From assembly GCA_030601755.1 (NCBI GenBank), contig JAUWBF010000034.1, positions 1 through 35,606 of the forward strand: a stretch of DNA of 35,606 bases. Reading direction: 5' to 3'. Below the pieces are notes generated by a model. That model made no database searches and was not told the DNA's origin. It was given only the letters and a program-made list of their open reading frames with translations. The translations under genes and the position numbers were made by a program. Of this stretch, positions 596 through 9,976 are shown one piece after another (positions within the stretch are counted from its first letter, which is position 1; each line of letters starts with the position of its first letter). This DNA is from Verrucomicrobiota bacterium (GTDB taxonomy: Bacteria; Verrucomicrobiota; Verrucomicrobiia; Opitutales; Opitutaceae).

Positions 596-1606
596 TCAGG
601 CCGCCTCGCCGGCGGGCAACCCGTGCGCGCGCAGCCACGCCGGGTTGTGCACGGTCTGCAGGTAGCGCCCGCCGCCATCGCACAATACGGTGACGATGAC
701 CCGACCCGGCCCGGCCTCCAAGGCCACGCGACGCGCGGCACAGAGATTGAACGCCGACGACAGGCCGAGGAACAAACCCTCTTCGCGCAGCACGCGCTGT
801 AACATCAGAACCGCCTCCTCGTCGGTGATCAGGTGCGCGTCGTCGGGCTTGAGCGCCGCCAGATTCGCGGTGATCCGCGACTGGCCGATGCCCTCGACGA
901 TCGAGGAGCCCGGCGTGGACTCCACCCGGCCGTCCTTCACCCATGACCAGACGACCGCCCCGGCCGGCTCAGCGCAGTGAACGCGAATCGACGGATCACG
1001 CTCCTTGAGCGCAAGGCCCACGCCGGCCAGCGTGCCGCCCGTGCCCACCGAAGCCACGAAGTCCGTCACCCGCCCCTTGGTCTGCGTCCAGATTTCCGGA
1101 CCGGTGCCCAGTCGATGCGCCTCGCGGTTGGCCGGGTTGTCGAACTGGTTCGCCCACCAGCCGCCGGGCAGGCTCTCCGCGAGTCTTCGCGCCTCGGCGA
1201 CGTAATTGCCGGGATGATCGGCCGCACGATCCGGCACCTGACGCACCTCGGCCCCGAGCGCGAGCAGGTGGTCAACCTTGCCCTGGCTCACGCCGTCGGG
1301 CACGACCAGCAGGCAACGGTGTCCCAGCGCGCGACCGATCCAGGCCAGACCCGCGCCCGTGTTGCCGGCGGTCGCCTCCACGATCACGCCGCCGGACCGC
1401 AACGCGCCGGAGCGGCGGGCGTCCTCGATCAAGGCCAGGGCCACCCGGTCCTTGGCCGACCCGCCCGGGTTCATGAACTCCGCCTTGGCGAAGATCCCGC
1501 ACCCCGTCTCCTTGGACAAGCCGCGGACTCGCACCAGCGGCGTGCGGCCGATGGCGGCGCACAGGCTCTCGGTCGCGACTGGCGTCGCCGGACGCACCCC
1601 GCTCAC
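596..1606 (-). CDS. Cysteine synthase family protein (PLP-dependent, second copy)
   Basis: This is a fold-type II PLP enzyme, 336 residues from a GTG start at 1606. It is expected to make cysteine from O-acetylserine, or a related activated serine, and sulfide. The PLP lysine is in GGSAKDR (about residue 52). The substrate loop reads EATAGNTG, the phosphate-binding loop SVGTGGT, and the C-terminus CDGGGRYL. The GTG start overlaps the stop of the upstream rhodanese gene by 4 bp (GTGA), indicating translational coupling. It is the last gene of the sulfur cluster. It is clearly different from the CysK at 8678-9652, so this is not a recent duplication. Pairing with a rhodanese suggests a sulfane-sulfur source, but this is inference. 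A cystathionine beta-synthase-like role is possible. Confidence 0.85.
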   Translation of the reverse strand: MSGVRPATPVATESLCAAIGRTPLVRVRGLSKETGCGIFAKAEFMNPGGSAKDRVALALIEDARRSGALRSGGVIVEATAGNTGAGLAWIGRALGHRCLLVVPDGVSQGKVDHLLALGAEVRQVPDRAADHPGNYVAEARRLAESLPGGWWANQFDNPANREAHRLGTGPEIWTQTKGRVTDFVASVGTGGTLAGVGLALKERDPSIRVHCAEPAGAVVWSWVKDGRVESTPGSSIVEGIGQSRITANLAALKPDDAHLITDEEAVLMLQRVLREEGLFLGLSSAFNLCAARRVALEAGPGRVIVTVLCDGGGRYLQTVHNPAWLRAHGLPAGEAA

Positions 1607-1992
1607 GCCTCCCGCCCCTTCGGCGGGTTCGCCGCCTGCCAGGCCGCGAACCCGCCCGCCAGCGAGCTGACCCGCGTATAACCCATGCGCACGAGGTTGT
1701 CGGCCGACAGCGCGGAGCGGTTGCCCCCCGCGCAGTAGAGCACGATCTCCGCGTCGGGGTCGGGCGCGATCTCCTCGATGCCGCCCTCCAGCAGGCCGCG
1801 CGGCAGGAGCACCGCGCCGGGGATGCGTCCGCGCGCGGTCTCCGGCGTCTCGCGCACGTCGATCACCAGCGGCGGGGCGGCGTCCGTGCGCGACAGCCGC
1901 GCACGCAGCCCGTCCGTCGTTATTTCCTGGATACGTTTCTTCGCGTCGGCGACGAGCGCGGCGAAGCGGGACTTTTGATTCGGCGATGACAT
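1603..1992 (-). CDS. Single-domain rhodanese-like sulfurtransferase
   Basis: This is a 129-residue single rhodanese domain with no signal peptide, so it is cytoplasmic. The family moves sulfane sulfur via a cysteine persulfide. The CDC25/rhodanese hallmarks are visible: LVIDVRETPE near residues 42-51 and the active loop CAGGNRS starting at Cys87. A helical leader of about 25 residues precedes the domain. The gene overlaps the downstream cysteine synthase by 4 bp and starts 12 bp after the FAD/NAD(P)-binding gene. The order oxidoreductase, rhodanese, cysteine synthase suggests persulfide or sulfide handling at the end of the sulfur cluster. The physiological donor and acceptor cannot be read from the sequence. 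Confidence 0.88.
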   Translation of the reverse strand: MSSPNQKSRFAALVADAKKRIQEITTDGLRARLSRTDAAPPLVIDVRETPETARGRIPGAVLLPRGLLEGGIEEIAPDPDAEIVLYCAGGNRSALSADNLVRMGYTRVSSLAGGFAAWQAANPPKGREA

Positions 1993-2004
1993 GGGATGTA
2001 AAAA

Positions 2005-3411
2005 TCAAACTCCGTCCAGCAACCGCGAGGCCAGCGCGAACGCCTGCGCCCGGATCTCCGGGATCGCGGTGCACTCCCACAGCACGCCCTTGATCGGCGC
2101 GCCCAGGCTGTGCAACCAGCCGGAGGGCTCCCAACGGTAACGTCGCACCCGGCCGTCCGGCTCGGCGTGCAACCCCAGGGCCAGCGGATCGTGATCGATC
2201 AGTCCGCGCGCCAGCAGATTGATGAACAACGGGTGTTGAAACTTCGAGTAGTCGCTGCGCGGTCCGGTGCAGTTGATGACCTTGGACACGCGCGCCTTTT
2301 TCAGGCTCCCGTCGCGCCGACATCGCCAGGTCGCCTCGACGGTGCCGTCCAGTTCGTCGAACTCCACGAGGCGTCCGGAGTGAAACGTCAACCGGCCCGA
2401 GGTCCGCAGCGCCTCGATGCGCGCATGCACCGCCGGGGCCAGGCGGTGCCGATGGATTTCCCAAAACGGTCGCACATGCGCCAGAAACCGCCGGCGATCA
2501 TCCAGGTCCAGCCCTTGCCAGAGACGCGACGTCACCGGTCTCAACGCGTCCACCACCGCGCGCCAATCCTCGCCTTCCGCCGCCGCCCTGGCGACCTCGG
2601 CGCGAGTCGAGCGCACCAGCGCGCGCAGTCCCTTCGGCGGCTCCTCGGGCGAAAACCACAGCGGCCGCTTCGGCAAGGGCACGCGATGCACCTGCGGCGA
2701 CAACCCGCGCCGCGACAACGCGTGAATCGGCCCCCGGTGCCCGCGGGCGACGAGCGAGTTGATCATGTCCACTGCCGTCAGTCCGGACCCGACGAGCAGC
2801 ACGCCCGAGTCCGCCGGGATGCGGTCCAGCGCGTCGTCGCGCCACGGCACGTGGACGTAGCGCGCGCTTTTGTAGAACGGCAGCGACCGGCGAATCGGGT
2901 ATTCGCCCGGCAGGTTGCCCAGCGCCAGGACCACCTGGTCGGCCGCGATCAACATGCCGTCGCGCAACTGCAACCGCGCCTGACCGCCACCCTCGCCGAT
3001 GTCGATCACCTCGCCCGCCACCACTCGGAACACCACATCGCGACGGGCGCGTTCACGGGCCTCGACGAGCTTGTGATAGACATAGTGGCCATAAACGTGG
3101 CGCGGCAGAAAATCCTCCCCGCCGACCTCGTCCGGAAAGCCAAACCGGCCCGCGTGAGCCTTGGCCCATTCGAGAAAATCGCCCGGCGCGTCGGGAAACG
3201 CCCCCAAGCCCGCGGCGGTCACGTTGAGCAGATGCTCCCCGTCCCAGGTGCGGTAGGCCACCCCGCGGCCGACCGGCGGATCGCGCTCGATCAGCGTGAT
3301 CTCCAGGGGACCGCGCGCCAAGCGCAGCAGGTTCACGGCGACCAATGTGCCGCTGATGCCACCGCCGATGATGGCGACGCGCAAGGGAATGGGGGATACC
3401 GGGGCGCGCAT
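2005..3411 (-). CDS. FAD/NAD(P)-binding protein (YdhS/HcaD-like)
   Basis: This 468-residue protein has an N-terminal Rossmann motif IGGGISGTLVAVNLL and the GRGVAYRT segment typical of the NAD_binding_9 family. A second dinucleotide-binding motif, LLVGSGLTAVDMINSL, lies near residue 205. It has no signal peptide and is presumably a soluble flavoprotein. Family members resemble flavin monooxygenases or hydroxyacylglutathione-linked oxidoreductases and often have no assigned substrate. The start ATG at 3411 gives a short leader before the first glycine motif. It sits 21 bp after the DUF3604 gene and 12 bp before the rhodanese gene, in the same direction. Oxidation or desulfonation of an organosulfur compound is a reasonable guess from context, not something the sequence proves. 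Confidence 0.78.
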   Translation of the reverse strand: MRAPVSPIPLRVAIIGGGISGTLVAVNLLRLARGPLEITLIERDPPVGRGVAYRTWDGEHLLNVTAAGLGAFPDAPGDFLEWAKAHAGRFGFPDEVGGEDFLPRHVYGHYVYHKLVEARERARRDVVFRVVAGEVIDIGEGGGQARLQLRDGMLIAADQVVLALGNLPGEYPIRRSLPFYKSARYVHVPWRDDALDRIPADSGVLLVGSGLTAVDMINSLVARGHRGPIHALSRRGLSPQVHRVPLPKRPLWFSPEEPPKGLRALVRSTRAEVARAAAEGEDWRAVVDALRPVTSRLWQGLDLDDRRRFLAHVRPFWEIHRHRLAPAVHARIEALRTSGRLTFHSGRLVEFDELDGTVEATWRCRRDGSLKKARVSKVINCTGPRSDYSKFQHPLFINLLARGLIDHDPLALGLHAEPDGRVRRYRWEPSGWLHSLGAPIKGVLWECTAIPEIRAQAFALASRLLDGV

Positions 3412-3432
3412 GGGGAGATCGTTGGGATTGGC

Positions 3433-5763
3433 TCAGGACTCGAAGCGCACGAACAGCGGACTCGTCCACACCTTGTGGTCGTCGCGCTCACGGGCAAACA
3501 GGTAGAGGGCGCGAAATCCGTGCGCGCCGTTTTCCGGCGGCGCCACGAACGCACCCTCGACGCGGGCGGGCAATCCGCCGCCGGCGACACGCTCGGCCGC
3601 CACGAAAAGCCCCTCGCCGCCCAGTTCGCGCCGGATGGCCCCGTGGCTCCACAAATCAGCCCCGGTCACGACGCCCGCCGCGCCCGGCGTCAGCGGATCA
3701 GGACGACTCGCGCCTCGCCGCCCGGTCTTGTCAAAGGCGCCGATCTCAAGGTTGAACTCCATCCGCAACGCCGCCGGATCGTCCACTTGGATCTCGATAT
3801 GATCGGCATCGCCATAGGTGTCCGCGCGCACCTGAAACACACCCGGCGAAACCTCGACCACCGTCTCTTCCGGATGCTCCAGCCCGCGCGCGGTCCACTC
3901 CAGCACACGCGCGCCGGTGATCGTGACCACCCCGCGCCACTCGGCCCAGCGGTAGCGGTCGCGGATGCGCGCCCCGCCCCAACGCAGCCGAAAGCGGTCT
4001 GCGGCCAACCCCGCCTCGGCATGCAGGTCGCGTTCATGCAGCACCACCCCGCGTTCGTCGCGCAGCTCGACCCGCTCCCAGTCGTCACCAAGAAGTTGAT
4101 ACGACAGCTCCAGCGGCCCGCGGTGTGCGAACGCGTCGCCCTGGCGCCGCCCCGCCGCCGACAGCAGCGCCACCGCCCGCCCGCCGGTGGTCGCCCAGGT
4201 GTGGCGGGCGCGCAACGCGCCGGCGACCGCCGCGCTCGTCAACTCCTCCGCCAGCACGCCGGTGACTCCGCCGCGCACGCCGAACGAGCCCACGCCCGGC
4301 GCGCCGCCGCCGGGTCGCCCGCGATGCTCGTCGCCGGCGGCGGACGCGCCGACCTGCAGGCCGCGCGCAAGGGCGTCGCGGTAGAACCAGTCGAAGTGCC
4401 CCCACGACGACGCCACCTCCACCAGTCGCTCCAAGCCCGCGTCGTGCCAGTCGAACACCGCCCGCCGCCCGCCGACATGCGGGATCAGCAGCACGCGGTC
4501 ACCCGTGGCCAGGTCGCGGTAGGCCTCGTGCAGATGGGCGGCGGTGGGCAACCCCGGATTCTGATCGCGATCCGTCGGCGTGTCCTCGTTCCAGTCGAAA
4601 ACGCGCAGACTGCGGCCGTCAGCCGCGAGCGGGAAGCGCACCTCCTCGCCGAGAAAGACCACGTTGCGATCCCCGCCGACGGTGCTGGCCCCGCACCACT
4701 CGGTGCCCGGAAAGCAGAGGAAACGTTGCTCGGCGTGCAGCTCGCGGCAGATGCCGATCGCCTCCGCCCAGCGGTCGGCCCGCACGTTGAAATCGTTGGC
4801 GGTGTAGCCGGCGACATCGAGGCCGGCGGCGTCGCGGGCGTGCTCCAGATTATCCCGGGTGGTATTCACCCCGACCGTATCCTCCGAGTGGATATGCAGG
4901 TCGGCGAACAACGCGCGCGGCGTCGGCGCGTCCGGATCGGCGGTCACGCGCGCGACGACCCGCGGGTCGTCGATGACCAGTTCGTAATCGCCCGCCTCTG
5001 GCAGACGCAGCAACCCGCGCGACCAGGCCCCGGCGGCGCCGCTCCAGGTGAGCGGCAGGCGCAGCAGGGTGCGCCCGTCGCGACGCAGGCGCAGCCAGTC
5101 AGGCGGCGGCGTGTCGGCCGGCGCGAGGTTGCCCCACTGATCCTCCACGCGCAGCGTGACCGCAAACGGCACGCCTGGCCGCACCAGACGCGGCGTCAGC
5201 AGGAACGCCTTGGCCGCCGGGCCCGGCCGGATCGCCAGCACGACGTCGCCAGGCACGGGCGCGAAGCGCGAGGCGCCGGTGGTGTCAACAAACGCACGAA
5301 AGCGAAAGGCCCGCTCCACAAAGGTCTGCACGCGGGTGCCCGGTCCGCCGCCGCGCCGGTCGCCCAGCCGGATCTCGATGCGGTCGCCGGCCTTCAGGTA
5401 GCCGTCCACCACGTCGATGATAACGGCCTTCTGCCACGGGCGCTCGTGTCCCTTCTGGTCAAAACGAACATCGAGCGAACGCACCGTCCCGGGGCTTTCG
5501 CCGGGAAACGGTTCGCGCGGCACATAGGTCGCCGAGACATAGTCGGCCCCCGAGGAATCGCTGGTCTGAAACGGAGCCCAGTCCGAGTAAAACTTAAAGA
5601 CCAGCTTGAGCCACGCCCCGTCGGCCAACCCGGCCGCGCCCACCTCGTAGGTGATCAACAGCTCCGTGCGCTCACCGGCGACGAGCGCGTCGCGCGCACA
5701 CGTCAGCCGTCCCAAAAAAGGCAGGGTCGCAAGATGCGAAGAAAGTTCGGCGGGATGAATCAT
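3433..5763 (-). CDS. DUF3604/PHP-like metallohydrolase, 776 residues
   Basis: This large protein starts at ATG 5763, chosen because it overlaps the cysW stop by 4 bp (ATGA). Residues 1-280 are beta-rich with Ig- or jelly-roll-like segments. The region from about 285 carries a PHP-like metal site: ALFADLHIHSED (His290, His292), then GYTANDFNVRADRW, FPGTEWCG, IPHVGGRRA and AGDEHRGRPG, all candidate ligands. This order matches DUF3604-type proteins, relatives of PHP phosphoesterases. The C-terminal third is again beta-rich. No signal peptide is visible, so it is probably cytoplasmic. Translational coupling to a sulfate permease suggests it acts on an imported sulfur compound, for example a sulfate or phosphate ester. 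That role is inference. Confidence 0.7.
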   Translation of the reverse strand: MIHPAELSSHLATLPFLGRLTCARDALVAGERTELLITYEVGAAGLADGAWLKLVFKFYSDWAPFQTSDSSGADYVSATYVPREPFPGESPGTVRSLDVRFDQKGHERPWQKAVIIDVVDGYLKAGDRIEIRLGDRRGGGPGTRVQTFVERAFRFRAFVDTTGASRFAPVPGDVVLAIRPGPAAKAFLLTPRLVRPGVPFAVTLRVEDQWGNLAPADTPPPDWLRLRRDGRTLLRLPLTWSGAAGAWSRGLLRLPEAGDYELVIDDPRVVARVTADPDAPTPRALFADLHIHSEDTVGVNTTRDNLEHARDAAGLDVAGYTANDFNVRADRWAEAIGICRELHAEQRFLCFPGTEWCGASTVGGDRNVVFLGEEVRFPLAADGRSLRVFDWNEDTPTDRDQNPGLPTAAHLHEAYRDLATGDRVLLIPHVGGRRAVFDWHDAGLERLVEVASSWGHFDWFYRDALARGLQVGASAAGDEHRGRPGGGAPGVGSFGVRGGVTGVLAEELTSAAVAGALRARHTWATTGGRAVALLSAAGRRQGDAFAHRGPLELSYQLLGDDWERVELRDERGVVLHERDLHAEAGLAADRFRLRWGGARIRDRYRWAEWRGVVTITGARVLEWTARGLEHPEETVVEVSPGVFQVRADTYGDADHIEIQVDDPAALRMEFNLEIGAFDKTGRRGASRPDPLTPGAAGVVTGADLWSHGAIRRELGGEGLFVAAERVAGGGLPARVEGAFVAPPENGAHGFRALYLFARERDDHKVWTSPLFVRFES

Positions 5764-6596
5764 GGCGAGGTCGTTTGTCGAAAGCGGCGGGCGACGATGG
5801 CCTTCGCCGCGAGGGTGATCAGCGCGAGCACGGCCAGCAGCAGGGCGGCGGCGAAGGCGCCGGCGGAGTTGTAGTCGTTGTAGAGCAGCTCGACGTGCAG
5901 CGGCAGGGTGTTGGTCTTGCCGCGGATATGTCCCGAAACCACGGATACGGCGCCGAATTCGCCGAGCGCCCGGGCGTTGCCCAGCAGCAGGCCGTAGAGC
6001 ACGCCCCACTTGATCTTGGGCAGCGTGATGCGGCGAAAGATCGTCCACCCGCCCGCGCCGAGCTGGTCGCCCATCGTCTCCTCGTCGGAGCCGAGCTCCT
6101 GCATGAGCGGCACGAGCTGGTTGAGCAGGTAGGGGAAGCTGACAAAGATCGTGACCAGGATGATGCCGGGCACGGCGAACATGATCTCCAGGTTGTGTTC
6201 GACCAGCCACGGGCCGAACCAGCCGCGTCGTCCGTAGACCATCATGTAGCAGACGCCGGCCACGATCGGCGAGAGGCTGATGGGTATCTTGCTGACGGCG
6301 AGCAGCAGGCCGCGTCCCGGGAACCGGTGGTAGGCGACCAGCCACGCGCCGGACAATCCGACCACCAGGCTCACCGGCAGCGCGGCGGCGGCGGCGAGCA
6401 CGCTCAGCCCGAGCGCCTGCCGGCTGTCGCGGGTGGTGAGATTGTCCCACAGGACGTCGGCTCCCGACGCCAGCGCCTCGCGCACGATGATGACCAGCGG
6501 CAGCACGAGCAGCAGGCCGGCGAGCACCACGGCGGCGGCGATGAGCAGGCCGCCGGCAAAACCGGGACGGGCGGAGCGGTTGACCACGGTGCTCAT
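5760..6596 (-). CDS. cysW: Sulfate ABC transporter permease CysW (set 2)
   Basis: This 278-residue inner-membrane permease has about six hydrophobic segments. The EAA-type loop that contacts the ATPase is recognisable as ARALGEFGAVSVVSGHIRG, followed by NTLPLHVELLYNDY, which is characteristic of CysW. The start ATG overlaps the cysT stop by 4 bp, and its own stop overlaps the DUF3604 start by 4 bp, so three genes are translationally chained. It forms the permease pair with the CysT at 6593-7426 and receives substrate from the binding protein at 7458-8456. No ATPase gene lies in this half of the cluster. It presumably uses the CysA at 9996-11084. Confidence 0.92.
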   Translation of the reverse strand: MSTVVNRSARPGFAGGLLIAAAVVLAGLLLVLPLVIIVREALASGADVLWDNLTTRDSRQALGLSVLAAAAALPVSLVVGLSGAWLVAYHRFPGRGLLLAVSKIPISLSPIVAGVCYMMVYGRRGWFGPWLVEHNLEIMFAVPGIILVTIFVSFPYLLNQLVPLMQELGSDEETMGDQLGAGGWTIFRRITLPKIKWGVLYGLLLGNARALGEFGAVSVVSGHIRGKTNTLPLHVELLYNDYNSAGAFAAALLLAVLALITLAAKAIVARRFRQTTSP

Positions 6597-7426
6597 GCGG
6601 CGGCGAGGCGGCGGCCCCAGTTTTCCAGGCGGTTGACGAGAAGCATGATCGCGAACGCGGCCACGAGCATGACGGTGGCGACCGCGGCCGAGCCGGCGTA
6701 GTCGTATTCCTCCAGGCGGATGTAGGCGAGCAGCGCGGTGATCTCGGTGCGATAGGGAATGTTGCCGGCGATGAAGACGACCGCGCCGAACTCACCGATG
6801 CTGCGGGCGAAGGCCAGGGTCGCGCCGGTGGCCAGCGCGGGCAGGATGGCCGGGAAGATGACCCGGCGGAAAATGGTGAAGGGCCGGGTCCCGAGCGTGA
6901 GGGCGGCCTCCTCGAGTTCGGGCTCGAGCGTTTGCAACACGGGCTGCACGGCGCGCACCACGAACGGCAGGCTGGTGAAGGCCATGGCCACGAGGATGCC
7001 GGCCGGGGCGAAGGCGACCTTGATCCCGAGTTCGGCGAGCGGCGCGCCCAGCCAGCCCTTGGTCGCGAAGAGCGTGGTCAGCGCCAGCCCGGAGACGGCG
7101 GTGGGCAGGGCAAACGGCAGGTCGATGATCGCATCGAGCAGGCCGCGACCGGTCCAGCGGTAGCGCACCAGCACCCAGGCCAGCAACAGTCCGGCGAGGG
7201 CGTTGAACACCGTGGCGCCGAACGCCGCGAGCAGGGTCACCCGGTAGGTGGCCAGCGCGCGGGCGTCGGTGATGATCTCCCAGAAATGCGCCGGACCAAG
7301 CGCGACCGATTTGGCCGCGAGGGCGCTGATCGGCAGCAGCACGAACAGCCCGAGAAACACCACCACGAGGGTGGCGTTCAGCCCGAGTCCGGGCAGGCGG
7401 TAGGCTCGTGGACGGGGCGGCGACAT
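6593..7426 (-). CDS. cysT: Sulfate ABC transporter permease CysT/CysU (set 2)
   Basis: This 277-residue integral membrane permease shows LPFALPTAVSGLALTTL and the EAA-like loop FARSIGEFGAVVFIAGNIP, followed by TEITALLAYIRLEEYDYAGS, the usual CysT signature. The start at ATG 7426 (MSPPRPRAYR) is chosen over a longer in-frame extension. The extension would run through the upstream binding-protein gene in another frame and adds no family-like sequence. The cysT gene follows the sulfate-binding protein gene by 31 bp and overlaps cysW by 4 bp. Together with CysW it forms the transmembrane channel for sulfate or thiosulfate. Confidence 0.92.
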   Translation of the reverse strand: MSPPRPRAYRLPGLGLNATLVVVFLGLFVLLPISALAAKSVALGPAHFWEIITDARALATYRVTLLAAFGATVFNALAGLLLAWVLVRYRWTGRGLLDAIIDLPFALPTAVSGLALTTLFATKGWLGAPLAELGIKVAFAPAGILVAMAFTSLPFVVRAVQPVLQTLEPELEEAALTLGTRPFTIFRRVIFPAILPALATGATLAFARSIGEFGAVVFIAGNIPYRTEITALLAYIRLEEYDYAGSAAVATVMLVAAFAIMLLVNRLENWGRRLAAA

Positions 7427-7457: not shown

Positions 7458-8456
7458 TCAGCGCTTGAGCAACTGGTCGAAGATCGCGCCGTTGGCGAAG
7501 TGGGTCTTCTTGATTTCGTCCCAGGTGCCGAAGACCTCGTTGGCGTCGAACAGCTCGATGTCGGGGAACTGTGCGGCGTATTTGGCGACGACGGCGGGCG
7601 AGCGCACACGGTAGAAGTTCTTCGCGATGATGTCCTGCGCCTCGTCGGTGTAGAGGAACTTGAGGTAGGCCTCGGCGATGTTGCGGGTGCCGCGCTTTTC
7701 CACCACGGCGTCCACCACGGAGACGGGGAACAGGCCGGCGATGCTGTAGGAGGGCGTGACGACGTCATACTTGTCGTCGCCGTATTGCTTGCGAATGCCG
7801 AGGGTCTCGGACTCGAAGGTGATCAGCACGTCGCCGAGCCCGCGTTCGACAAAGCTGGTGGTGGCGCCGCGCCCGCCGGTGTCGAAGACGACGACGTTGT
7901 TGACGATCTTGCCGACAAATTCGCGGGTCTTGGCCTCGTCGCCGTTGAATTTTTTGAGTCCATAGGCCCAGGCCGCGAGGTAGGTGTAGCGCGCGTTGCC
8001 GGAGGTCTTGGGATTGGGGAAGACGAGTTTGACGTCGGGCCGGGCGAGGTCGTCCCAATCCTTGATGCCCTTGGGGTTGCCCTCACGCACGAGGAAGCTG
8101 GTGAAGGAGTAGTAGGGCGAGGACTGGTCGGGCAGCCGGCTTTGCCAGTCGGCGGGGATCAGCTTGCCTTCGTCGTGGAGGACCTGCACGTCGCTGACCT
8201 GGTTGAAGGTGACGACGTCGGCCGGCAGACCGTCGAGGATGGCGCGGGCCTGTTTGGAGGAACCCTGGTGGGACTGGTTGACGACGATTTTTTCGCCGTC
8301 GTGCGCGGCGGCCCAGTTTTTGGCGAAGACGGGATTGAGCGCGGCGAAGAGCTCGCGGGAAACGTCGATGGAGGTGTTGAGGATCTCGCGTTCGGCGCGG
8401 AGGGCCGGGGCGGCGAGGGTGGCGGCCGCGAGGGCGGCGAGGAACAGGTGTTTCAT
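7458..8456 (-). CDS. sbp: Periplasmic sulfate/thiosulfate-binding protein (set 2)
   Basis: This 332-residue exported binding protein begins with a cleavable signal peptide ([21 protein letters not shown]). The Sbp/CysP family blocks are all present: [12 protein letters not shown], the anion-binding [47 protein letters not shown] and [19 protein letters not shown]. It delivers sulfate or thiosulfate to the CysTW pair encoded just downstream. The start codon lies about 100 bp after the 3' end of the tRNA-Cys-like element, so that element sits in the leader of this gene or in the transcript joining it to cysK. It differs in many positions from the second binding protein at 14708-15709, so the two may have different substrate ranges. 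Confidence 0.93.
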
Positions 8457-8558
8457 GGATGATTGATGTCTGCCTGGGCGGAGGCGTCCGGCGGGTCCGG
8501 TCTGCGTATCCGTTTTATGGATTCAAATGGCCATGAAGCGGTCTTCTCTGGCAAAGGC

Positions 8559-8659
8559 TGGAGGCGGGGGCTGGAATCGTTCCGGGCGAAGCCCGAGGCA
8601 TTTCACCAGCTCGTGACGACGTTTGCGGCGTCGTGGCCTTCCCACTTGGCTACCCCGCC
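8559..8659 (-). ncRNA. tRNA-Cys-like RNA element between cysK and sbp
   Basis: Read on the minus strand, this 101-nt element begins with the acceptor strand GGCGGGG (8659-8653), TA, and the D-arm GCCAAGTGGGAAGGC. It ends with the matching acceptor strand CCCCGCC (8569-8563), U73 and CCA (8561-8559). The anticodon arm has six perfect pairs (ACGACG with CGTCGT) around the loop CCGCAAA. The anticodon is therefore GCA, but position 33 is C instead of the near-universal U. In place of the usual 4-5 nt variable loop there is a region of about 30 nt with the hairpin CGGGC-TTC-GCCCG. The T-arm is degraded: the loop reads AACGATT rather than TTCGATT, and only three of five stem pairs form. The element starts 18 nt after the cysK stop and ends 102 nt before sbp. 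The main cysteinyl-tRNA synthetase identity elements are kept, while features needed in the ribosome are not. Confidence 0.75.
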
Positions 8660-8677: not shown

Positions 8678-9652
8678 TCAGGGCCGGGTAAGCTCCGAGA
8701 TGTCGTCGCTCTCGGCGTCGACCTCGGCGAAGAGCCAGGTGGAGAGGTAGCGCTCCGAGGAGGAGGGGACGATGACGACGATGCGTTTGCCGGCGTTCTC
8801 GTCGCGTTTGGCGAGTTGCAGCGCGGCCCAGACGGCGGCGCCGGAGCTGATGCCGACGGGAATGCCGTCGAGCGTGTTGACCTGCCGCGAGACGGGGCCG
8901 GAGTCCTCCTCCTTCACCTGGATGATCTCGTCGATCACGTCGGTGTTGAGGATGCTCGGGACGAAGCCGGCGCCGATGCCCTGGAGTTTGTGCGGGCCGG
9001 GCTGGCCGCCGGAGAGCACGGGCGAGCTGGCGGGCTCGACGGCGACGATGCGGATGTCGGGATTGCGCTCGCGGAGCACCTCGCCGACGCCGGTGACGGT
9101 GCCGCCGGTGCCGACGCCGGAGACGACGATGTCGACCTTGCCGTCGGTGTCGCGCCAGATCTCCTCGGCGGTGGTCTGCCGGTGGATGGCGGGGTTGTCG
9201 GGGTTGGCGAATTGCTGCAGGACGACGCTGTTGGGGATCTGCTTGTTCAGTTCCTCGGCCTTGGCGATGGCGCCCTTCATGCCCTTCGGGCCCTCGGTGA
9301 GGACGAGCCGCGCGCCGAGGATCTTGAGCAGCTTGCGCCGTTCGAGCGACATGGTCTCGGGCATGGTGAGGATGAGCTTGAGACCCTTGGCGGCGGCCAC
9401 GAAGGCGAGCGCGATGCCGGTGTTGCCGGAGGTGGGCTCGATGAGGACGGTGTCCTGGTTGATGCGGCCGGAGCGCAGGGCCTGGTCGATCATGTTGAAG
9501 CCGATGCGGTCTTTGACGGACGAGAGCGGGTTGAAGAACTCCAGCTTGAGCAGGATCTCGGCCTTGGCGCCATGGACGGCGGCGGTGCGATTAAGGCGGA
9601 CCAGCGGGGTGTTGCCGATGGTCTCGGTGATGTCGTTGTGGATTTTTGCCAT
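8678..9652 (-). CDS. cysK: Cysteine synthase A
   Basis: This 324-residue O-acetylserine (thiol)-lyase condenses O-acetylserine with sulfide to give cysteine, using PLP. It shows the classic CysK order: [10 protein letters not shown], the PLP lysine in SSVKDRIG (Lys47), the substrate loop [11 protein letters not shown], the phosphate clamp [13 protein letters not shown], and the C-terminal SSSERYLST. Its length is normal for CysK. It follows the HPr-like gene by 27 bp and is followed after 18 nt by the tRNA-Cys-like element. Its place among sulfate transport genes supports assimilation of imported sulfate into cysteine. Confidence 0.95.
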
Positions 9653-9679: not shown

Positions 9680-9976
9680 TTATCGGGACGCGGGTTCGAA
9701 GGAGCGCGCGAAGAGCGCGCGAAGATCGTGCAAAAGCGTGTCGGCACCGGGCCCGGCGACGGTGAAGAGCACGCGGTCACCCGGCTCGGCGGCGAGCATG
9801 AGGAGGGCGAAGATGTCTTTGGCGTCGGCTTCGATGTCGCCGCACCGCACCGTCACCGGACCATCATGCCGGCGGGTGAGGGCGACGACCTGGTTGGCCG
9901 GACGGACGTGCAAGCCGTGGCGGTTGGCCACGACAAACTCCTCCTGCAGCGTGGGTGTTGGCTCGGAGCCGGACAT
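9680..9976 (-). CDS. HPr-family phosphocarrier-like protein
   Basis: This 98-residue protein matches HPr (about 85-90 residues) over its length. The active-site histidine is present in HGLHVRPA (His23, followed by the conserved Arg and Pro). The regulatory serine region reads AKDIFALLML, where HPr normally has KSI followed by a hydrophobic run. The residue at the Ser46 position is thus Asp (Asp54). HPr carries phosphate between enzyme I and PTS partners, and Ser46 phosphorylation controls this in many bacteria. Here the position is a permanent acid. The gene lies between cysA and cysK, 19 bp from cysA, an unusual place for HPr. A regulatory role in the sulfur cluster is possible, but the partner is unknown. 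Confidence 0.85.
   Translation of the reverse strand: MSGSEPTPTLQEEFVVANRHGLHVRPANQVVALTRRHDGPVTVRCGDIEADAKDIFALLMLAAEPGDRVLFTVAGPGADTLLHDLRALFARSFEPASR

Follow-up and report, generated by a model that had tools for sequence, protein, structure and literature searches.

A probable second tRNA-Cys gene with a T-loop insertion in a sulfur-assimilation operon of an Opitutaceae genome

The window, i.e. the whole 35,606-nucleotide stretch of DNA analysed here, carries on its minus strand, at 8559..8659, an element which we regard, with a probability of roughly 55%, as the local member, bearing an insertion, of a family of second tRNA-Cys genes located in the sulfur-assimilation operons of some Opitutaceae. 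The window copy is a diverged tRNA gene and not a new kind of sensor and, judged from its sequence, this operon-linked tRNA-Cys paralogue is probably unfit as an elongator in the window's genome (G000). If this is true, a second tRNA-Cys invariably accompanied by sulfur-acquisition genes and having a conserved C33 would either tie the pool of Cys-tRNA genetically and directly to the supply of cysteine or be a Cys-tRNA reserved for purposes other than translation. Opitutaceae strain TAV5 is a cultured relative with the intact, 75-nt form of the gene, and either reading is testable there. The recurring T-loop insertion poses a separate question, namely how a 25-base hairpin reaches the same position of different tRNAs.

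Results

Structure and detection of the window element

A reading made earlier from the sequence only had described a 7-bp acceptor stem, a tRNA-Cys D-arm, a GCA anticodon on six pairs, C33, U73 and CCA on the minus strand at 8659-8559, and all of these were borne out. The acceptor stem is fully paired, its 5' strand GGCGGGG (8653..8659) pairing with CCCCGCC (8569-8563), and the D-arm, GCCAAGTGGGAAGGC, is of the tRNA-Cys type. The anticodon arm (8616..8634) consists of six pairs, ACGACG/CGTCGT, one more than in the relatives, and a 7-nt loop, CCGCAAA, with C33 at 8627 and the anticodon GCA at 8626-8624. The discriminator U73 and the encoded CCA (8559..8562) are common to all relatives. The variable region of about 30 nt with a hairpin, which had also been proposed, turned out to be a mis-parse: in the alignment to the relatives the variable loop is short (CACGA), and the hairpin is a 25-nt insertion in the T-loop, GAAATGCCTCGGGCTTCGCCCGGAA (8580..8604), situated between T54 and C56. 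The T-loop had further been said to have lost its TTC. It is correct that the TTC is not continuous, but the cause is the insertion, which takes the place of T55, and both the alignment and the covariance model show an intact T-stem (GCTGG, 8610-8606, and CCAGC, 8574-8570).

The covariance model, R1, was built from 11 distinct relatives, all without the insertion. With it the window element, which also aligns to 14 relatives as a second tRNA-Cys (tRNA-Cys2 type), scored 73.6 bits (E 1.1e-16), the next match in the window having 13 bits, and a chance origin, earlier judged unlikely, is excluded. The folding energy (z -1.5) is by itself insufficient to exclude chance. Neither ARAGORN nor an Rfam search called the window element as a tRNA, presumably because of the T-loop insertion. 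Of the traits of an elongator-type tRNA, the 7-bp acceptor stem, D-arm, GCA anticodon, U73 and CCA are present, whereas the 5-bp anticodon stem and U33 are replaced by six pairs and C33, and a 7-nt T-loop with TTC is lacking both here and in the distant relative G116. The T-loop insertion, C33 and the 6-bp anticodon stem together make ordinary service as an elongator unlikely for the window copy.

A family of second tRNA-Cys genes

When 252 genomes of the family, including Opitutaceae strain TAV5 (G005), were searched, 15 copies of the second tRNA-Cys were found in 14 genomes. The copies have in common the GGCGGGG acceptor strand, G15 with A48, GCA, U73, CCA and mostly C33, which is present in 13 of the 15 (the exceptions being G140 and G058) and in 11 of the 13 copies free of the insertion. 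A48 stands against G15 in every copy, C48 being the canonical base here. Since E. coli CysRS depends in part on the 15-48 pair (PMC9976931), charging of the A48 copies is not to be presumed. The T-loop has the normal 7 nt in all copies except those of G000 and G116, and reads TTC in the insertion-free copies, with TTT in G189. The insertion-free relatives have five anticodon-stem pairs, the outermost of which is mismatched in some. ARAGORN called these relatives, found at the same place, tRNA-Cys, L171 being called Leu by a shifted anticodon, and one relative scored 51 bits with RF00005.

A normal U33 tRNA-Cys was also found in 13 of the 14 carrier genomes; in G238 none was found by the same pattern search. 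In the window's genome it lies on another contig (G000:C135:27887), as the sequence-only reading had asked to be confirmed, and the idea that the window element is the cell's only tRNA-Cys was rejected.

Over the 11 distinct sequences 98.2% of the pair cells are standard pairs, and four pairs show changes on both sides. None of 500 shuffles, which do not remove relatedness, reached the observed pairing or covariation. At the level of the aligned sequences this shows that the helices of the family are kept by selection, compensatory changes having preserved them, and there is no pattern of decay by random substitution. Three outcomes had been named beforehand as counting against the sequence-only interpretation, i.e. 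lack of conservation in related sulfur clusters, lack of a normal tRNA-Cys elsewhere and random substitutions without compensatory pairs in the homologues, and none of them occurred. Mean identity between genomes is 91% for the second copies and 95% for the canonical tRNA-Cys.

Sulfur-operon setting

The window element is located between two genes of its own strand (minus), cysK for cysteine synthase A upstream (8678..9652; TIGR01139, 454.7 bits) and a gene for an sbp/cysP-type sulfate or thiosulfate binding protein downstream (7458..8456; PRK10852, 475.5 bits; TIGR00971, 457.7 bits), the latter being followed, also on the minus strand, by cysT- and cysW-like permeases of a second sulfate transporter set (5760..7426). 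The tie to cysteine and sulfur genes, noted from the window alone, is real and is kept in the relatives: for each of the 15 second copies at least one of cysK, cysA, sbp and an SsuA-like gene is at most 1.5 kb away, compared to none of 44 canonical tRNA-Cys loci with any of the window's sulfur genes in stretches of up to 3 kb. Wherever checked, the tRNA and the sulfur genes are on the same strand. In TAV5 and G189 the second tRNA-Cys lies between cysA and sbp, and G107 has two copies, the second of which is found upstream of an SsuA_fam match (E 3.7e-25, which falls short of the cut-off for that family). In relatives lacking the second tRNA-Cys, about 20 cysK loci contained no trace of it. The carriers cluster in a tree of the cysK protein, yet several gains or losses are required. 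The interval from cysK to the tRNA in the window contained nothing resembling a terminator or promoter, in a scan that covered only some types of promoter.

Other genes of the region were also recorded. After the second sulfate transporter set, window positions 596-5763 encode a CehA/McbA-like metallohydrolase, an FAD-NAD(P)-binding protein, a rhodanese-like protein and a second cysK, and the FAD gene adjoins a cysK without a tRNA in other genomes. A PTS-HPr domain protein is encoded at 9680-9976, between cysA and cysK.

The location in the operon had led to the proposal of a cis-acting cysteine sensor, in which a tRNA-like domain of the cysK-sbp mRNA would bind CysRS, or be charged when cysteine is high, and so alter the expression of sbp or cysK. 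The kept U73 and GCA, together with a C33 unlike that of an elongator, are consistent with this, as is the fact that sbp follows nine of the 15 copies and an ssuA-like gene one. A further point in its favour is a hairpin directly 3' of the tRNA, GCCA-GA-GAAG-ACCG-CTTC-A-TGGC (8530..8552, minus), within the 102 nt that separate CCA from the sbp start in the window. The hairpin is kept in 7 of 9 tRNA-sbp loci, the window included, is bulged and has a variable, mostly covarying outer stem. It was absent at comparable positions upstream of primary sbp genes, where two loci had a loosely similar GAAG-CTTC match, and it leaves room for some leader function. The genomes G040 and G116 share another conserved stretch 3' of the tRNA, CGCACGTGC.GCCCGCACACCGCC.

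However, the relatives at the same place are complete tRNA-Cys genes that resemble processable ones. In six copies sbp is not the next gene, which argues against a pure sbp leader, and in five of them (G191, G196, G107a, G140 and G058) no transporter gene follows at all: what comes next is a DUF2892-like gene (our own reading of the translation), an FAD oxidoreductase (two copies) or unrelated sequence. Neither the flanks nor the spacing is conserved, and G117, G191 and G196 share one identical tRNA between unalignable flanks. No T-box, riboswitch or other Rfam leader was matched in the window or the related loci, and the long hairpin once assigned to a variable arm is the T-loop insertion, which is also present in a fragment of tRNA-Asp. 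The mimic or sensor interpretation is thus unsupported by the comparison with relatives, and we consider it quite improbable.

The T-loop insertion

The 25-nt insertion is missing from 13 of the 15 family copies and present in G000 and G116, the two versions being identical at 23 of 25 positions (92%). It is single-copy in both of these genomes, and in the window's own genome no further copy was found with up to three mismatches allowed. The cysK of G116 is 95% identical to that of G040, which has no insertion, and the insertion must therefore have been gained twice, separately, at one site or else lost several times.

A third carrier is G092 (L305, minus), where a 3' half of tRNA-Asp contains the insertion, again between T54 and C56. 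Its stem differs yet is paired, with CGGCG-CAG-CGCCG in place of CGGGC-TTC-GCCCG. The fragment lies about 1.26 kb downstream of an intact tRNA-Asp and adjoins a RelE-like toxin gene; such fragments arise when elements integrate into tRNA genes (PMC9897764). Since the insertion occurs at the same site of a tRNA-Asp fragment, it is not tied to cysteine or to cysteine sensing; the copies that have it are expendable to the cell.

In L309 (G143), at 300-700, a tRNA-Asp is followed by a tandem 3' copy beginning with C56. Ahead of this copy stands GCCTCGGGCTTCGCCCTGAA, which corresponds, with one difference, to the right half of the T-loop insertion. This is suggestive, although microhomology at a tandem duplication may account for it. 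In L302, L303, L304, L306, L307 and L308 the insertion was matched in part, but without a tRNA around the match and in some cases apparently within coding sequence, and these matches were ascribed to chance. An origin of the element or the insertion from a phage, plasmid or virus was dismissed, as no useful match was obtained, and so was an origin of the insertion from the long variable arm of tRNA-Ser or tRNA-Leu, to which it has no similarity.

It is possible, although in our judgement unlikely, that the second tRNA-Cys of G000 (and of G116) is a neutral relic, knocked out by the insertion and now decaying. T55 is lost, the G116 copy has mismatches in the T-stem (A-A) and the anticodon stem (C-C), a displaced and certainly dead tRNA-Asp 3' fragment contains the same insertion, and a normal tRNA-Cys is present. 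On the other hand, the acceptor stem, D-arm, T-stem and CCA of the window copy are intact, and its relatives are under selection. By our own reading of the alignment, its anticodon stem differs from that of TAV5 by two double changes that preserve pairing and by one extra pair, which argues that an RNA of this fold is, or was, maintained here too.

The occurrence of the same insertion at the same T-loop position of different tRNAs might also be explained if it were removed from the transcript in the manner of an intron, leaving a normal T-arm. No excision restores T55 and TTCGATT from the window sequence, however, and in the carrier G092 the tRNA has no 5' half. Splicing of tRNA in such a manner is not known from bacteria, and this explanation appears scarcely credible.

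C33 tRNA-Cys genes in other phyla

A scan of the GTDB collection revealed that C33 tRNA-Cys genes also exist in several other phyla, as a rule in genomes that have a U33 tRNA-Cys as well. These are mostly found in tRNA arrays or near unrelated genes, and C33 was for that reason rejected as a general marker of sulfur operons. In L081-L125, from several phyla, the extra C33 tRNA-Cys often has a possible 32-38 pair (C-G, U-G or U-A), which would close the anticodon loop to five bases. In Candidate division KSB1, C33 tRNA-Cys genes are located about 35 nt upstream of cysK, one in L106:4947-5026 and two in L112:6358-6590. Genes for two Acetyltransf_6 GNAT proteins flank them, in a polysaccharide cluster (PEP-CTERM/XrtA-type glycosyltransferase, amidotransferase), and these loci may represent a Cys-tRNA-dependent modification system.

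Such observations bring to mind a non-ribosomal role, in which a C33 tRNA charged with cysteine would be kept off the ribosome and feed an aminoacyl-tRNA-dependent enzyme. The C33 paralogues that most of the genomes checked, from several phyla, possess in addition to a normal copy are consistent with this, as are the KSB1 genes, which precede cysK near the two GNAT proteins, one of them with a weak LPG_synthase_C match. However, no partner aminoacyl-tRNA transferase was found in the operon in the window, G18 and G19 are kept and the T-loop of the window copy is broken. Moreover, tRNAs with U33 changed to C work in translation, and C33 alone is no proof of lost decoding. For the Opitutaceae gene we hold a non-ribosomal role to be very unlikely.

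Discussion

The reading that we prefer, a sulfur-operon-linked second tRNA-Cys of which the window holds an insertion-bearing copy, implies the following course of events. The second tRNA-Cys would be transcribed as part of the operon and released from the transcript by the usual enzymes of tRNA processing, and CysRS would be able to charge it, so that its amount would rise with cysteine synthesis and sulfate uptake. In G000 and G116 the 25-nt hairpin inserted in the T-loop has removed T55 and with it the normal contact between the D-loop and T-loop, and the window copy would now be a disabled or merely tRNA-like transcript within the cysK-sbp mRNA. Two sets of observations count against this reading. 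C33 in 13 of 15 copies and A48 in all 15 suggest a role beyond the supply of extra elongator, and the pair-keeping changes in the anticodon stem of G000, together with the 92% identity of the insertion in G116, indicate that the window copy may still have a function.

A bolder proposal would combine a dedicated, Cys-charged C33 tRNA-Cys of Opitutaceae sulfur operons, serving in sensing or non-ribosomal chemistry, with a hairpin element of 25 nt whose insertion would be site-specific, falling between positions 54 and 56 of the T-loop (of tRNA-Cys in two genera, of a tRNA-Asp fragment in another), and which would persist in dispensable tRNA copies only. As a whole we find this proposal unlikely. 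The sensor and non-ribosomal roles are possible but unnecessary to explain the data.

Comparison with known systems

The non-proteinogenic tRNA-Gly of Staphylococcus is an extra isoacceptor with features that disfavour translation, in which it resembles the tRNA described here. The window tRNA differs from it in keeping G18 and G19 and in having no Fem-type partner in its operon. A T-box leader of cysteine genes would likewise link these genes to the charging of tRNA-Cys. The T-box binds a tRNA in trans, whereas here the tRNA itself sits in the operon.

Extra tRNA copies are also known as attR-type tRNA fragments (PMC9897764), and the displaced fragment that carries the insertion in G092 is one of these. 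The cysteine copy, in contrast, is complete and diverged from the canonical gene throughout rather than being a 3' repeat, the canonical gene is on another contig and no integrase was seen in the window. Mimicry of tRNA has been described for the E. coli thrS operator (PMC9976931), which is similarly a tRNA-like structure in the mRNA of a related pathway. The window element, however, is not in a synthetase leader, its relatives are complete tRNA genes with CCA, and it is about 100 nt from the next start codon, outside the translation-initiation region of a controlled gene.

With bacterial tRNA-Cys (GCA) genes the element shares the acceptor, D-arm, GCA, U73, CCA and the 7-nt anticodon loop. 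The family as a whole differs from them by C33, A48 against G15 and its location in operons, and the window copy additionally by its 6-bp anticodon stem and the 25-nt T-loop insertion.
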